From NCBI GenBank assembly GCA_012729835.1, contig JAAYCK010000129.1, positions 1-59,095 of the forward strand: DNA of 59,095 nt, read 5' to 3'. Every line of letters starts with the position of its first letter. The first letter of the stretch is position 1. Under the pieces are notes generated by a model that was not told the DNA's origin, ran no database searches, and saw nothing but the letters and a program-made list of their open reading frames with translations. Below are positions 6,665 through 52,922 of this stretch, in pieces. The stretch comes from Syntrophomonadaceae bacterium. GTDB lineage: Bacteria > Bacillota > Syntrophomonadia > Syntrophomonadales > Syntrophomonadaceae. Made by a program: the position numbers and the translations under genes.

Positions 6665-6693
6665 TTGAAAACCCTGAAATATGTTGATAATAC
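6665..6693 (+). promoter_or_regulatory. Promoter of the selenoprotein gene
   Basis: TTGAAA at 6665-6670 and TAATAC at 6688-6693 are spaced by 17 bases. This is a near-consensus promoter about 55 bases upstream of the selenoprotein start codon. Confidence 0.65.
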
Positions 6694-6748
6694 CGGTATT
6701 AGCTGATATTATCCAGGTAGCTAAACCGCAAGTTTGAGGAGGTATTTT

Positions 6749-7102
6749 ATGTCAGACAATAACTCCGCCGTATTGGTGGAGATACTTAACGGTACCAACT
6801 CTGGGGGTGGTGGTTGAAGTGCATGTGGCTCAGCAGGCAGCTGTGGCACCAACCCCTATGAAGAATTACAGGAGATCGCCGAGAAACTTACCGGTGAACT
6901 CAAAGAAGCCTACGGTGACAAGGTAGAGGTCAAGTACATCAATGCGGATAACACTGGATTGGCCGATTATCCGTTGGTAAGCCGGGTATTACAGATGGGT
7001 TACCCTTATCCGATCACTCTAATTAATGGAGAGCCCAAGTTTGCTGGCGGCATTATGGGACCCGATATCAAAGGCAGCATAGATGAAATCCTGAATCAGT
7101 AA
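6749..7102 (+). CDS. Selenoprotein with a thioredoxin-like fold (in-frame TGA read as selenocysteine)
   Basis: From ATG 6749, behind the strong site GAGGAGG, the frame runs 22 codons to a TGA at 6815-6817 and then stays open to TAA at 7100-7102, giving 117 residues if TGA is selenocysteine. The local sequence GGGG-U-SACGSAGSCG is a glycine- and cysteine-rich redox motif, with cysteines following the Sec by 3 and 9 residues. The remainder (EELQEIAEKLTGELKEAYGD, then YPLVSRVLQMGYPYPITLIN) fits a small thioredoxin-like fold, broadly like the YuzD family. A hairpin at 6825-6849 has the geometry of a bacterial SECIS element. No alternative start follows the TGA. Promoter and terminator flank the gene, so it is monocistronic. 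The function is probably thiol-selenol redox chemistry; the substrate is unknown. Ordinary reading would miss this gene. Confidence 0.85.
6818..6849 (+). promoter_or_regulatory. Bacterial SECIS-like hairpin
   Basis: GTGGCTCAGC (6825-6834) pairs with GCTGTGGCAC (6840-6849) with two mismatches and a five-base loop AGGCA. The two loop G residues lie about 19-20 bases after the TGA, close to the spacing in E. coli fdhF. The position and the GG in the loop are the features SelB recognises. Confidence 0.7.
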
Positions 7103-7122
7103 AGAACTATTAATAATGAATC

Positions 7123-7160
7123 AAAAAAACTGTATTGCTTCGATGCAATGCAGTTTTTTT
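7123..7160 (+). terminator. Rho-independent terminator of the selenoprotein gene
   Basis: CTGTATTGC and GCAATGCAG form a nine-pair stem (one G-U) with loop TTCGAT, preceded by an A-run and followed by TTTTTTT. Confidence 0.9.
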
Positions 7161-7202
7161 GTGGACCAAAAGGACCGTAGCTTTTTCTTTTGAAATTATT
7201 AC

Positions 7203-7211: not shown

Positions 7212-7277
7212 TATCTAGTCCGCTAGATGATAAGGTCATTCTGTCGGTTAACATGGACTCAACTAGGTGGTGTACAA

Positions 7278-8621
7278 GTGAAAATCAGTGACGCGGAAGT
7301 ACTCGGTGCTCAAAAAACCTATACTATTCTGACCTATGGCTGCCAGATGAATGTCAGGGATTCTGAAATTATCGCGGGTATGCTCGAGGGTATTGGATAC
7401 ATTCGAACTCTTTCAATTGAAAACGCAGATTTAATTGTATTCAATACGTGCAGTGTCAGGCATTCAGCTGAAAATAAGGTGTTCGGCAAACTTGGTGAAG
7501 TTGCTCTAATGAAGAAGAAAAACCCTGATCTGCTGATAGCTTTGGGTGGATGTATGGCGCAATTGCCGGAAGTTAAACCGAGATTAAAAAAAAGCGGCGT
7601 TGACATAGTTTTTGGCACCCATAATATTCATGAGTTGCCCTTTTTAGTACAGGACGCGGCTGCCAAGCGAACTTATCATTACCAGGTATGGAGTGAAAAT
7701 AGTGAAGTCATCGAATACGAGAGATCGATCCGCCGACCAGGCGTTAGTGCTTTCATAAACATAATGTATGGGTGCAATAATTTTTGCGCCTACTGTATAG
7801 TCCCTCATACCAGAGGGCGAGAGAGAAGCCGGCACCCGGAAGAGATTATCAGAGAAACCAAAGAGATAGCCGAGGCTGGTTATAAAGAGATAACACTGCT
7901 GGGGCAGAATGTGAATTCTTATGGAAAAGGCCTGGATTCAGGGGTCGATTTTGCTGACTTATTACGGATGGTCAACGACGTGGATGGTATAGAACGCGTA
8001 CGCTTCACCACTTCGCATCCCAAGGATGTAAGCGATAAACTGATCCATAGCATAGCCAGCCTGAATAAGGTATGCGAGCATATCCATATGCCATTGCAGG
8101 CAGGAAACAATGAAGTCTTGCAGGCCATGAACCGCAAATATACCCGTGAACATTACCTGGAACTAGTCAATAAAGTACGTACTGAGATTCCCGGGGTAGC
8201 GATTACCAGTGATCTTATAGTCGGTTTTCCCGGAGAAACCGAGGAACAATTCGAAGATACGCTGGATATGGTAAAGAGGATCAGATTTGACGCGGCTTTT
8301 ACCTTTATGTATTCCATTCGCACCGGCACAAAAGCAGCTTCGATGGAAGCGCAGGTAAACCTGGAAGAAAAACGCCGCCGCCTGACTAAACTGAATCAGG
8401 TTCAATATCAGATAGCCGAAGAAATCAATCAGCAATGGGAAGGAAAGATCGCTGAGGTTTTAGTCGAAGGCACCAGCAAGACCAACCGGCAAAAAATGAC
8501 GGCTCGAACTCGAAGCAATCAAATAGTTATTTTTTCTGGAGATGAGGACTTAATAGGAAAACAAATTAATGTTAGAATAACTAAAGCAAAGACTTTTTCA
8601 CTTTTTGGTGAAATCGTATAA
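7278..8621 (+). CDS. miaB: tRNA-2-methylthio-N6-(isopentenyl)adenosine synthase
   Basis: The protein has 447 residues. The N-terminal UPF0004 domain has cysteines in YGCQMNVRDSE, NTCSVR and LGGCMAQ, which bind the auxiliary [4Fe-4S] cluster. The radical SAM motif YGCNNFCAYCIVPHTRGRER follows, and a C-terminal TRAM domain closes the protein. MiaB adds the methylthio group at C2 of i6A37 in tRNA, after MiaA has prenylated it; miaA is at 17501 in this same cluster. GTG 7278 is preferred to the upstream ATG 7227 because AGGTGG lies seven bases before it. Length and motifs are normal for MiaB rather than MtaB or RimO. Confidence 0.95.
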   Translation: MKISDAEVLGAQKTYTILTYGCQMNVRDSEIIAGMLEGIGYIRTLSIENADLIVFNTCSVRHSAENKVFGKLGEVALMKKKNPDLLIALGGCMAQLPEVKPRLKKSGVDIVFGTHNIHELPFLVQDAAAKRTYHYQVWSENSEVIEYERSIRRPGVSAFINIMYGCNNFCAYCIVPHTRGRERSRHPEEIIRETKEIAEAGYKEITLLGQNVNSYGKGLDSGVDFADLLRMVNDVDGIERVRFTTSHPKDVSDKLIHSIASLNKVCEHIHMPLQAGNNEVLQAMNRKYTREHYLELVNKVRTEIPGVAITSDLIVGFPGETEEQFEDTLDMVKRIRFDAAFTFMYSIRTGTKAASMEAQVNLEEKRRRLTKLNQVQYQIAEEINQQWEGKIAEVLVEGTSKTNRQKMTARTRSNQIVIFSGDEDLIGKQINVRITKAKTFSLFGEIV

Positions 8622-8654: not shown

Positions 8655-9032
8655 GTGCAAACTGAGGAAATTATCCATCTGGCTTTGGAGTTGGGAAATG
8701 CTATTGCAGAATCCAATGAGGCTGCTGAATTGAAAGCCATCCAACTAAAACTGGCCGACGATCCCGAGGCCTATGAACTCATTGTTAAATATCAGGATGT
8801 CCGTGAGAAGATTGAGAATAAGATAGAAGATGGTTTGACTATAACCAAGTCTGAAGAAGACCATATGGATATACTCGAACAGCAGCTCAATTCTAATACA
8901 ATGGTATTGGACCTGATTCAGGCCCAGGATAGATTCAATAACCTGATGCAGGCAATATTCTTTACTATTAATCAAGCAGTGTCAGGTGGTTGCTCCAGCG
9001 GCTGTGATTCCTGTGACGGGATGTGCAGCTAA
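8655..9032 (+). CDS. ylbF: YlbF/YmcA family regulator with C-terminal cysteine cluster (RicF-like)
   Basis: The 125-residue protein is mostly helical (DUF964) and ends with CSSGCDSCDGMC, a C-x3-C-x2-C-x3-C cluster. In Bacillus, YlbF (RicF) with YmcA and YaaT forms a complex carrying [4Fe-4S] clusters that affects RNase Y-dependent RNA processing, competence and sporulation. The cysteine tail points to RicF rather than the cysteine-poor relatives. GTG 8655 follows AGGAGGAGC. It sits directly behind miaB, 33 bases away, and before mutS, a common neighbourhood in Clostridia. Whether the complex partners exist cannot be seen here. Confidence 0.85.
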   Translation: MQTEEIIHLALELGNAIAESNEAAELKAIQLKLADDPEAYELIVKYQDVREKIENKIEDGLTITKSEEDHMDILEQQLNSNTMVLDLIQAQDRFNNLMQAIFFTINQAVSGGCSSGCDSCDGMCS

Positions 9033-9190: not shown

Positions 9191-9261
9191 GATAATGATG
9201 CAAAGAGATATCTGATAAACAATGACCCATAACATATCGGTTGTTCCTGGAGGAATATTCA

Positions 9262-11823
9262 ATGGTCCAGTATACTCCAATGCTGCAGCAGTATTTGCAG
9301 ATTAAAAATGACTATCCAGATACGATTCTATTCTTTCGGCTCGGAGATTTCTATGAGATGTTCTTTGAGGATGCCCGGATCGGATCCCGCGAACTGGAGA
9401 TCGTTCTAACTGCCCGGGACGGCGGAGAAGAAAAGGTACCTATGTGTGGTATTCCTTACCATGCGCTGGATAATTACCTGGCCAAACTGGTTTCTCGCGG
9501 TTTTAAGGTGGCTATTTGTGAGCAGGTAGAAGATCCCCGTGAAGCCAAAGGGGTAGTTAGGCGAGAGGTTACCCGGGTAGTAACCCCGGGAACGGTTTTA
9601 GAAGCTGGGTTACTAGAGGACAATCGCAATAATTACTTAGCAGCCGTAATCGAGGAAAATGAAATTATCGGTCTAGCCTGGGCAGATATCTCAACCGGAG
9701 AATTCCGGGTAAGCGAGCTGGAGGGGCCCGCTGCCGTTTCGCGGCTTAAAAGCCAGCTGCAGAGATTATCACCAGCCGAATGCTTGATCAGGGAGTGGAA
9801 TGGTCTTATAGCCGATACCGCCATCGATAACTGGCCAGAACGACTAAAGCTTAGTATTATAAACGACTCGGCCCTTAACGTGGATAGAGCGCGCCAGATT
9901 CTCCTCAAACATTTCCGGGCTGCTTCCTTGGAAGGCTTTGGACTGAAGGATTATACTTCCGGCACCATTGCTGCCGCAGCTATTGTTCTATTTATCGATG
10001 AGACCTGCAAGACCAACCTGAAACACCTGACCAGCCTGGGGGTTTACCTGGATCGTGATTACATGGAGATCGACTATTCCAGTCGTCGAAACCTTGAACT
10101 TAATGCAAGTTTACGCGAAGGTAAGCGTGAAGGTTCACTGCTGGGGATCTTGGACAACTGCGCTACTGCCATGGGAAAGCGTACCATTCGAAAGTGGATG
10201 GAACAACCGCTGCTGGATATCGACAAGATAACCAGTCGCCAGGATGCAATTGCCGAACTACTGGAGAACATGTCACTGCGCGGGCAAATTAAAATTGGCT
10301 TATCGGCTATATATGATCTGGAACGGATAGCAGCGCGGATCGGAGCTGACCTGGCTAGCCCGCGGGATCTTCTTGCTCTAAGAGACTCTATAGCTGCGGT
10401 CCATGATCTGGCCAATATCATCGTGGATTGCCATAGTTCTTTATTGAAAGAGATAGCCGGCCTGGATCGTTTGGACGATATCTATGTACTGTTGGAACGA
10501 TCAATTAAAGAGGAGGCTCCTCTAACCGTCCGCGAGGGCAATATAATAAAAACCGGATATCATCCAGAGATAGATGAGCTTCGCAGCCTATCGCATGAGG
10601 GATCGCAATGGCTGATCGATTTTGAGAACCGTGAAAAGCAGCGCACCGGCATTAAATATCTCAAGGTCGGTTTTAACAAAGTATATGGTTATTACATTGA
10701 AATCAGTAAATCCAGCCTGTCACAGGTGCCGCCAGATTATTACCGTAAACAGACATTGGTAAACAATGAACGCTTTATCTGTGAAGAGTTAAAAACCTAT
10801 GAAGAAAAGATATTAGGGGCACGCGAGAAACTCTACAACCTTGAATATGATGAATTCATAATAATCCGCGATTCACTGGTAGGTCATTTAGGGCGCATAT
10901 TAGAAACTGCATCACATGTAGCAGCCCTTGACGTTTTGCACAATCTGGCTGAAAAGGCTTACTTAAATGATTACCGCCGACCAGTGGTGGATCTGAGTAC
11001 AGACATTGCGATACATAACGGACGACATCCAGTGGTCGAACACACCCTGCGAGATGGTCGTTTTGTACCTAATGACCTCCACCTTCATAATGATCAGTGT
11101 TTTGCCATCATAACCGGCCCGAATATGGGAGGGAAGAGCACCTTCATGCGCCAGACCGCCCTCATAATTATCATGGCCCAGATGGGGTCCTATATACCAG
11201 CTGAGAGTGCCCGCATCGGATTAGTAGAACAGGTATTCACCCGGGTAGGGGCGGCTGACGATTTGGCAGCTGGTCAGAGCACCTTTATGGTCGAGATGGT
11301 TGAAGTGGCAAATATACTGAACAATGCACGCAAAAATAGTCTGATTATCCTGGATGAGATCGGACGCGGCACCAGCACATACGATGGTCTTAGCATTGCT
11401 CAGGCGGTTGCCGAATACATACACCGAAACATCGGTGCTCGTACGTTGTTTGCTACCCATTATCACGAGATAACTGCTCTGGCCGATCACTTGCCCGGTA
11501 TATTCAATTTAGCGGTTTCGGTGTTGGAGAAAAATGACACCGTGGTTTTTCTAAAAAAGGTCTTGCCCGGGAAAGCTGACAAGAGCTACGGATTGCATGT
11601 AGCCTCGCTGGCTGGGGTACCGGAAGCTGTAGTAACAAGAGGGCAAGAATTGCTGGAGAACCTGGAAACGGCCCCGGCCAAGCCAAGGAAAAGAGTGGTG
11701 CAACCTGGCTTATTCACTCAGGAGGATAGTGTAACCCAGGAACTCAGGGATCTCAATCCAGATAATCTGAGTCCACGGGAAGCACTTGATCTGATATATC
11801 GCTGGAAAGAGCTGCAAAAGTAG
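9262..11823 (+). CDS. mutS: DNA mismatch repair protein MutS
   Basis: The protein has 853 residues. The N-terminal mismatch-recognition motif FYEMF (in LFFRLGDFYEMFFEDA) holds the conserved Phe and Glu. The ATPase has Walker A TGPNMGGKSTF and Walker B LDEIGRGTST, and a C-terminal helix-turn-helix region ends in REALDLIYRWKEL. It binds mispaired bases and recruits MutL, encoded at 14882. The ATG at 9262 has GGAGGA ten bases upstream; the TTG at 9241 is in frame but less likely. Length is typical of MutS1 and not MutS2. Confidence 0.97.
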   Translation: MVQYTPMLQQYLQIKNDYPDTILFFRLGDFYEMFFEDARIGSRELEIVLTARDGGEEKVPMCGIPYHALDNYLAKLVSRGFKVAICEQVEDPREAKGVVRREVTRVVTPGTVLEAGLLEDNRNNYLAAVIEENEIIGLAWADISTGEFRVSELEGPAAVSRLKSQLQRLSPAECLIREWNGLIADTAIDNWPERLKLSIINDSALNVDRARQILLKHFRAASLEGFGLKDYTSGTIAAAAIVLFIDETCKTNLKHLTSLGVYLDRDYMEIDYSSRRNLELNASLREGKREGSLLGILDNCATAMGKRTIRKWMEQPLLDIDKITSRQDAIAELLENMSLRGQIKIGLSAIYDLERIAARIGADLASPRDLLALRDSIAAVHDLANIIVDCHSSLLKEIAGLDRLDDIYVLLERSIKEEAPLTVREGNIIKTGYHPEIDELRSLSHEGSQWLIDFENREKQRTGIKYLKVGFNKVYGYYIEISKSSLSQVPPDYYRKQTLVNNERFICEELKTYEEKILGAREKLYNLEYDEFIIIRDSLVGHLGRILETASHVAALDVLHNLAEKAYLNDYRRPVVDLSTDIAIHNGRHPVVEHTLRDGRFVPNDLHLHNDQCFAIITGPNMGGKSTFMRQTALIIIMAQMGSYIPAESARIGLVEQVFTRVGAADDLAAGQSTFMVEMVEVANILNNARKNSLIILDEIGRGTSTYDGLSIAQAVAEYIHRNIGARTLFATHYHEITALADHLPGIFNLAVSVLEKNDTVVFLKKVLPGKADKSYGLHVASLAGVPEAVVTRGQELLENLETAPAKPRKRVVQPGLFTQEDSVTQELRDLNPDNLSPREALDLIYRWKELQK

Positions 11824-50792: not shown

Positions 50793-52922
50793 CTACCGCA
50801 TAATATCTTTGGCCTTGATCTCCGGATGGTGGTATCTTTCGTATTGTGGCGTTTTTTTGCCGTATTGCATGCACTCTTCGGGACACCACTGCAGGCAGGC
50901 GAAACATTGCTCGCAGCGATGATTCCATATCAGTTTATCGTCCTCGAGAGTAACATTATGTTCAGGGCAGAGTTTCACACATAATCCGCACCGGTTGCAG
51001 CGGTCATCCACCCAGAATTTATTATCCATTTTGGGGACCATATCGAAGGTCAAATTATATAACCAGGTGAATACTATTCGCTGCCAGAGGGGGCCCTTTT
51101 CTACCGGCATTTCCTTACGTTCTCTGATCCGACTGGCTACAGCGCTTAGCTTGATCCGGGCTTCTCTGAAGCGAACATTTTGTTCTTCTAGCGGTCCGGG
51201 ACCGCCCCATGGTATATAATTGGAAGGAAGGATGACCGACCAACCGGAGGAAAGCTTCATTCCTTTGCGTTCCATCATCTTCTGAAGCTGGATCAGGGTG
51301 TTGGACACCTGGCCGGCATTGTTGGCCACAGCAAAGATATATTCTGGCTGCATGTCTTTCAATTCATCAAGGAATTCCAGCACTTTATGGGGAACACCCC
51401 AGATATGGACGGGAAATACCAGCCCGATCACCTTACTCTTTATTTCCCGGCGATTTTCCATCCATTTATTTATGGAAATCAACTCGGTTTTGCCAAGATC
51501 CTGGGCCAGTACCCGCGCAGCCCATAATGAATTGCCAGTGCCGGTCAAATAGAAGATGGTAGTATCCGCTTTTGGTGCAGGTTTTTCTGGCACTGATACT
51601 TTATTATTAACCGCAGGTACTGGTTGAGCTTGGGTTGCTTTATCTGCGGGCTTTATGTCTTTTTTGAACTTCTGCACGGGCGCCTTCTGACTTACTGTCC
51701 TGACCTTTTCGGCATTAATAACAGTAGCTGCTGTCTTGGGTTTGGCCTTGACCGCAACAAACTGGCACCATTCAGCGATAGCAGCTTGATTTTCCGCGAA
51801 ATAATCCTCCGGTGGGAATTCCACTTCCTCGATCATCACCCCGATATGATTTTCTATCTCATAAAGGCTCATAATATCGTCACCGGTAACCAGTGAAACC
51901 GCACGTCCACCATTGCCAGCGCGACCGGTACGCCCTATCCGGTGGACATAGCCGTCATTTTCGATCGGCACGTCGTAATTGACTACCAGGGACAGGTCAT
52001 CGATATGGATCCCGCGAGCCGCAACATCGGTAGCTACCAAAAGGCGAAAATCACCATGCTTGAACTGATTTAGGGTCTTGAGCCTTTTATCCTGCGGGAT
52101 GTCTCCATGCAGGGCTTTGATATCATAACCCTGCCGGGAAAGGAAGCTCTGGATCTTATCAACCATAAATCTGGTGTTAGCGAATATCATACAGCTTTCC
52201 GGGCGCTCGATTTGCAGCAGGCGATTCAATTGTGTGTTCTTTTCGTTGGGATTGACCCGATAATACATTTGCTTGATCGTATCAACCGTCTTGGTGTCCG
52301 ATTCGATCTCAATCGTTACGGGATTTCTCATATTCTTGCTGCAGAGCTTTTGCACCTCGGGCGGTATGGTGGCTGAGAAGAGGAGGGTTACCCGATCCCG
52401 GGGCAAGGTCTTTATGATCTTCCAGACCTGATCGATAAAGCCCATATCCAGCATCCGGTCTACTTCATCTAGCACCAGATAACGTATGTTTTTGGTCACC
52501 AGGTTTCTTTGCCCGATATGATCAAATACCCGGCCCGGCGTGCCGGTAACGATGGCGACACCCTTTTTCAGATCCTGCATCTCGATATTTATACTGTGCT
52601 GCCCGTATACAGCGGTAGTTTTATGCGGCAGCCGCTTGGCCATCAGCTTAATATCGCTGTCCACCTGGACAGCCAGTTCGCGAGTGGGAGTAAGGATCAA
52701 TGCCTGGGGTCCGGGTGCTTCCGAATTTATGAGCTGTAGCAGGGGGACCCCAAAAACTGCGGTCTTGCCGCTGCCGGTCTTGGATATAACGATAAGATCT
52801 TTTTTAGCCAGAGCAGGGGGAATCGCCATGCTCTGCACCTCAGTCGGCGCCTCGAAGCCCATATCATCCAGGGCCTGCAGGATGGGATCAGCGATGCCGA
52901 GACTTTCAAAACTACTGTTCAT
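50793..52922 (-). CDS. DEAD-box RNA helicase fused to an EFR1-type flavodoxin/ferredoxin module
   Basis: This single open frame of 709 residues holds a complete helicase followed by a redox module. Residues 1-375: GFEAPTEVQ (Q motif), SKTGSGKT (47-54), PTRELAVQ, TPGR, DEVD (152-155, in place of DEAD), SAT, ATDVAARGIH and HRIGRTGRAG (327-336). Residues 385-452 form an Ala/Pro/Lys-rich linker. Residues 455-709 form an EFR1-type part: flavodoxin phosphate loop LTGTGNSLWAAR, then two [4Fe-4S] motifs, CNRCGLCVKLCP (642-652) and CEQCFACLQWCP (670-680). RNA unwinding joined to electron transfer is highly unusual. ATG 52922 has only a weak upstream site (AAGAAG). No stop or frameshift interrupts the join. 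Confidence 0.9.
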   Translation of the reverse strand: MNSSFESLGIADPILQALDDMGFEAPTEVQSMAIPPALAKKDLIVISKTGSGKTAVFGVPLLQLINSEAPGPQALILTPTRELAVQVDSDIKLMAKRLPHKTTAVYGQHSINIEMQDLKKGVAIVTGTPGRVFDHIGQRNLVTKNIRYLVLDEVDRMLDMGFIDQVWKIIKTLPRDRVTLLFSATIPPEVQKLCSKNMRNPVTIEIESDTKTVDTIKQMYYRVNPNEKNTQLNRLLQIERPESCMIFANTRFMVDKIQSFLSRQGYDIKALHGDIPQDKRLKTLNQFKHGDFRLLVATDVAARGIHIDDLSLVVNYDVPIENDGYVHRIGRTGRAGNGGRAVSLVTGDDIMSLYEIENHIGVMIEEVEFPPEDYFAENQAAIAEWCQFVAVKAKPKTAATVINAEKVRTVSQKAPVQKFKKDIKPADKATQAQPVPAVNNKVSVPEKPAPKADTTIFYLTGTGNSLWAARVLAQDLGKTELISINKWMENRREIKSKVIGLVFPVHIWGVPHKVLEFLDELKDMQPEYIFAVANNAGQVSNTLIQLQKMMERKGMKLSSGWSVILPSNYIPWGGPGPLEEQNVRFREARIKLSAVASRIRERKEMPVEKGPLWQRIVFTWLYNLTFDMVPKMDNKFWVDDRCNRCGLCVKLCPEHNVTLEDDKLIWNHRCEQCFACLQWCPEECMQYGKKTPQYERYHHPEIKAKDIMR

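Follow-up and report, generated by a model that had tools for sequence, protein, structure and literature searches.

The contig JAAYCK010000129.1 of a Syntrophomonadaceae bacterium (assembly GCA_012729835.1) contains a short frame that opens with an ATG, meets an in-frame TGA early on and then stays open. Does the TGA end the protein or is it read as selenocysteine (Sec), and, if it is read through, what kind of protein results? The window analysed here is the whole stretch of 59,095 nucleotides around this frame. A previous sequence-only reading had proposed an unannotated small selenoprotein with a thioredoxin-like fold, flanked by its own promoter and terminator and carrying a SECIS-like hairpin, and had left its family and substrate open.

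Homology and selection across the in-frame TGA

The ATG at 6749, the TGA at residue 23 and the TAA at 7100-7102 were all confirmed in the window (Table 1). The read-through product is 117 amino acids long and has the glycine-rich motif GGGGUSACGSAGSC, in which Sec is followed by two cysteines, Cys26 and Cys32, as had been described. Ordinary ORF calling does lose the gene, with no ORF of at least 80 amino acids listed at 6749-7102, and 94 open codons past the TGA would arise by chance with a probability of about 0.005 at this GC content. Of the two flanking elements claimed, the terminator stood out strongly from background, while promoter-type matches were near chance level (3 found versus 2.0 expected in a scan), so that the upstream promoter is a plausible but weak match. 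An Rfam scan of the window at gathering thresholds gave no match.

Table 1. Positions of the selenoprotein gene, its associated elements and its downstream neighbours in the window.
Feature	Positions	Strand	Basis or remark
Putative sigma-70 promoter TTGATA-17-TATTAT	6684-6712	+	TG before second hexamer; 10/12 matches
Shine-Dalgarno AGGAGG	6737-6742	+	Direct reading
Predicted selenoprotein gene, 117 aa, thioredoxin fold	6749-7102	+	Homology, selection, model
In-frame TGA, predicted Sec23	6815-6817	+	Cys or Sec aligned there in 76/76 relatives
SECIS-like hairpin	6825-6849	+	Apical loop AGGCA 6835-6839, spacing 17 nt
Intrinsic terminator hairpin and T run	7122-7161	+	-22.3 kcal/mol, z -7.3
miaB (radical SAM, UPF0004, TRAM)	7227-8621	+	Downstream neighbour, conserved in Syntrophomonadaceae
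YlbF/YmcA family gene	8655-9032	+	Conserved neighbour
mutS	9241-11823	+	Conserved neighbour

The relatives match the read-through protein over its full length, across the TGA, and carry Cys or TGA at residue 23, as the earlier reading would have it; in the alignment of 76 relatives this residue (Cys/Sec), P88 and G100 are invariant. Sec and Cys are thus equivalent at this site. A paralogue in the same genome, 63% identical, has TGC at the Sec codon, and Syntrophomonas palmitatica encodes a tandem pair in which one copy has Cys and the other TGA. Compared over the 94 codons past the TGA, the window gene and its TGA-bearing counterpart in S. palmitatica gave a pN of 0.16 and a pS of 0.89, which indicates that the downstream part is under purifying selection at the protein level. 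Homology across the TGA settles the read-through, and the gene is almost certainly a selenoprotein gene. Plasmid searches found no family members.

Some peculiarities were seen along the way. A Cys-type homologue (L059:5001-5360; the same gene in L019 and L077) has an in-frame TAG at residue 12 (VEV*QGTQ), a site with an aliphatic residue in relatives, probably a nonsense change or an assembly error. The YlbF/YmcA family protein of the window has a cysteine cluster, SGGCSSGCDSCDGMC, at its C-terminal end. In a 709-aa ORF on the minus strand (50793-52922), a DEAD-box RNA helicase (PF00270, PF00271) is joined to an EFR1-like C-terminal region that opens with the flavodoxin-like sequence FYLTGTGNS and has two 4Fe-4S motifs, an unusual fusion if it is not an assembly artefact.

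Sec machinery and SECIS-like hairpins

The genome encodes the machinery for Sec insertion, with tRNA-Sec (70.9 bits), selA (577 bits), selB (380.6 bits) and selD (384.7 bits) all on contig C186. Hence neither homology ending at the TGA nor a genome without selABC was encountered. The selD gene itself (L070, G000:C186:53571-54494) has an in-frame TGA and probably encodes a selenoprotein too. In a sample of 398 genomes of the phylum, the family was present in 65. Among these, selA was over the cut-off in 55, or 56 when counting G171, where it is split across two contigs. TGA members occurred in 30 of the 56 genomes with selA versus none of the 9 without it (G020, G167, G217, G233, G242, G290, G331, G392, and G394), with a Fisher p of 0.003 that is indicative only, because related genomes are not independent. 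The distribution of tRNA-Sec nearly matches that of selA; the exceptions are G331, which has tRNA-Sec, and G017, an 82% complete genome with a TGA member and selA in which tRNA-Sec was not found.

The hairpin noticed earlier lies 8 to 32 bases past the TGA, with GG at 6836-6837 in its loop and a minimum free energy (MFE) of -10.1 kcal/mol, within the published limits for bacterial SECIS (bSECIS) elements (loop of 3-9 nt, stem of at least 4 bp, G in the first two loop bases, spacing of 16-37 nt, and MFE of -7.5 or lower; PMC13188914). However, it was equalled by 40 of 200 dinucleotide shuffles and by 20% of synonymous-codon shuffles, so that alone it is weak evidence, unremarkable against shuffled sequence. 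The sequence-only reading gave too much weight to this single hairpin and to the promoter, and it is the comparative evidence that carries the case.

Across the family, we compared the best bSECIS-like hairpin past the Sec or Cys codon with synonymous-codon shuffles under a simple energy model. The mean z was -2.42 for TGA members (n = 44) versus 0.06 for Cys members (n = 52), and the Mann-Whitney p of 1e-11 is overstated because the sequences are related and some loci repeated, but the contrast is still large. Members of the family with a TGA are therefore constrained to keep a SECIS. In Syntrophomonadaceae a recurrent hairpin, YAGYUG-UGGNN-CARCUR, was 95.8% paired, versus 64% at most in slid controls, and two of its pairs showed compensatory changes; the count leans in its favour since the rows were chosen by that pattern. 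Most members there have the hairpin loop fixed on the conserved S-C-G codons, with the TGA 17 to ~35 nt upstream, a distance that varies because Sec stands where either the first Cys of the protein loop or a later one would be. The window and S. palmitatica genes have a different hairpin, further upstream in the motif, at a spacing of 17. On a quick tree built from the C-terminal core, with the motif excluded, 16 Sec/Cys changes were needed, of which well-supported branches force only 2; such a number indicates that Sec and Cys were exchanged repeatedly.

Two further hairpins deserve mention. The Cys copy of S. zehnderi (L051:5001-5366) keeps a perfect one, GCTAGTTGT-GGA-ACAACTAGT, likely a fossil SECIS left after a change from Sec to Cys. 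A distant clade with the motif GUGPxQSQxE (L138:4929-5258, minus strand; L141, L151, and L148) has very strong hairpins past the TGA, of up to 14 bp with loop GGC and a spacing of 17, and may deserve the status of a separate selenoprotein family.

Fold, gene neighbourhood and possible role

AlphaFold2 returned a thioredoxin fold (mean pLDDT of 77-79), with the Gly/Cys loop at about residues 19-33 below a pLDDT of 50. The order of strands and helices in the model, assigned with DSSP, is that of the thioredoxin fold, and the conserved proline P88 precedes strand 4. Fold matches were moderate (TM of 0.45-0.57), the best PDB entry being 1xg8, followed by thioredoxins and ArsD (larger-alignment model), and the family profile found 1xg8 at an E value of 1.9e-8. 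The fold that had been suggested from the letters was thus recovered by model, profile and fold matches, and thioredoxin-fold thiol/selenol chemistry is a highly probable activity.

The gene precedes miaB-ylbF-mutS on the same strand at about a dozen loci in Syntrophomonadaceae; other relatives in this family of bacteria are located elsewhere, so the miaB neighbourhood is not obligatory, and close relatives in other lineages sit at ligA-gatA. We also compared 80 family loci, with 5-kb flanks, with 40 control stretches of the same genomes, mostly ~30 kb away. ACR3 or ArsA was found within 5 kb at 19 of 80 family loci versus 0 of 40 controls, and any of ACR3, ArsA, an ArsP-like permease or ArsR at 31 versus 2, target counts that are biased upward somewhat by the picking of the query genes from family loci. 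TGA members occur at six of the ACR3/ArsA loci. This enrichment comes from distant members, across several families of the phylum. In several operons the family gene comes directly after arsA, and several of these ars operons also hold a true ArsD, so the family gene is an extra component there; a simple replacement of ArsD was rejected on the same ground.

Given that the genes of distant relatives recur beside those for arsenic efflux, we favour a thioredoxin-fold selenoprotein that serves anaerobes as a selenol/thiol redox or metalloid-handling protein, and regard this as the probable explanation as a whole. SelB and tRNA-Sec would read the UGA at 6815 as selenocysteine, assisted by the hairpin just past it. 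Sec23 would then lie close to Cys26 and Cys32 in the flexible, glycine-rich loop that links strand 1 to helix 1, and the invariant P88 would take the position of the thioredoxin cis-proline. As for substrate and partner, we infer that the selenolate would attack or bind some soft electrophile, which may be a disulfide or else a trivalent metalloid; a neighbouring Cys would then either share this ligand or resolve the product as a selenenylsulfide. The more specific proposal of a Sec-based metalloid-handling family, in which selenolate and nearby thiols capture As(III)- or Sb(III)-like species in anaerobes, is a tentative one. Close relatives are found at miaB and not at ars loci, which makes the metalloid role an extrapolation from distant members. 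The genome studied here has no ArsD and no ACR3, and its ArsA-profile matches are weak and partial, none of them convincing; for this organism, a part in metalloid handling is accordingly doubtful, a lead suggested by analogy.

Other explanations were weighed against this one. It is hardly credible that translation truly stops at the TGA and that what follows is a separate gene or one that has decayed. The unremarkable window hairpin would suit such a stop, but past the TGA synonymous sites are saturated and replacements few, the TGA recurs in many homologues, either at this site or at a Cys site close by and always in genomes with selA, and the hairpins are specific to TGA members. More serious, if still on the unlikely side, is a general thioredoxin- or glutaredoxin-like selenol reductase without a metalloid role, the ars linkage being a later recruitment. 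Such an enzyme might act on disulfides or peroxides, or in the repair of proteins, in oxygen-sensitive anaerobes. The housekeeping sites of the close relatives (miaB-ylbF-mutS and, in other lineages, ligA-gatA) and the lack of ars efflux genes in this genome agree with it, and thioredoxin-fold redox proteins make up most catalogued selenoproteins (PMC13188914). It leaves aside, however, an ars enrichment that several families of the phylum share and that the controls do not show, and a fixed CxxC is not kept in the loop.

A metallochaperone of the ArsD type, with Sec among its ligands, is improbable, even though ArsD structures are among the fold matches (TM of 0.54), the gene directly follows arsA in several operons and weak ArsD profile matches occur (E of 0.023 in NCBIfam and 0.089 in Pfam for the window protein, 2.1e-5 for the best relative). 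Against it, the window protein scores 13.5 bits versus a cut-off of 27 for the Pfam model (PF06953) and 15.2 versus 90 for the NCBIfam model (NF033727), a true ArsD occurs alongside the family gene in ars operons, and a convincing ArsA partner is lacking in this genome. The redox or metalloid-handling selenoprotein that we favour adds an apparently undescribed family, present in 65 of 398 genomes and TGA-bearing in 30, whose genes model-based annotation would tend to shorten or miss at the TGA. With its repeated Sec/Cys exchange, the tandem Cys and Sec copies of S. palmitatica and a Sec that moves between two positions of the loop over a single SECIS, the family offers a good natural test set for asking why selenocysteine is retained in bacteria, and the arsenic-efflux linkage of the relatives raises a testable selenium-arsenic connection.

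Relation to known thioredoxin-fold families

The window protein fell below every cut-off in the Pfam and NCBIfam scans, and single-sequence searches of Pfam, NCBIfam and PDB gave sub-threshold matches only; those to RseC_MucC, TraK_2, Metallothio_2 and RHS were set aside as apparent chance matches, either short or due to Gly/Cys-rich sequence. In classical thioredoxins, helix 1 starts with a CxxC or UxxC whose place is fixed. Unlike them, the family shifts or loses the Cys after residue 23 in relatives, although the window protein has UxxC, and C32 is ~90% conserved. The nearest solved structure belongs to DUF1462 (YuzD-like, PF07315; 1xg8, S. aureus SA0798). This family shares the thioredoxin fold and a similar length, and PF07315 was matched by 31 of 76 relatives at an E value of 0.01 or lower (best, 1.8e-8), but the window protein scores 13.9 bits versus a gathering cut-off of 25, so that DUF1462 counts as remote kin and not as its established family. 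Literature searches found no description of a Gly/Cys-rich loop or Sec in DUF1462 and nothing relevant on DUF1462/YuzD, and the deep-Sep main text is silent on both names.

ArsD (PF06953; 3mwh, 3kgk) is alike in its thioredoxin fold, in having cysteines in the loop that leads from strand 1 to helix 1 and in the ars-operon setting that is frequent among the family's relatives; it differs by the scores given above, and a literature search on ArsD together with selenoproteins returned nothing relevant. SaoT (NF040730), HUIPC (NF047660) and Brachyspira Sec.1/Sec.2 (PF13192) are, like this protein, small selenoproteins of the thioredoxin fold that have homologues with Cys (PMC13188914; PMC5330540), but the window protein matches none of their models even at an E value of 10. 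Its relatives matched HUIPC at an E value of 0.0013 at best and PF13192 at 0.027, but gave no match to SaoT, so the organomercury-associated SaoT was rejected as its identity. Table 1 of PMC13188914 lists 119 selenoprotein families and subfamilies. As the window protein matches none of the NCBIfam and Pfam models of catalogued families at an E value of 10, and DUF1462 is absent from that table, we take the family as uncatalogued; it is apparently undescribed as judged against the catalogue families with such models, rather than against RefSeq annotations. What the locus adds to the thioredoxin-fold redox proteins that dominate the catalogue is, apparently, a new selenoprotein family of a well-known kind.
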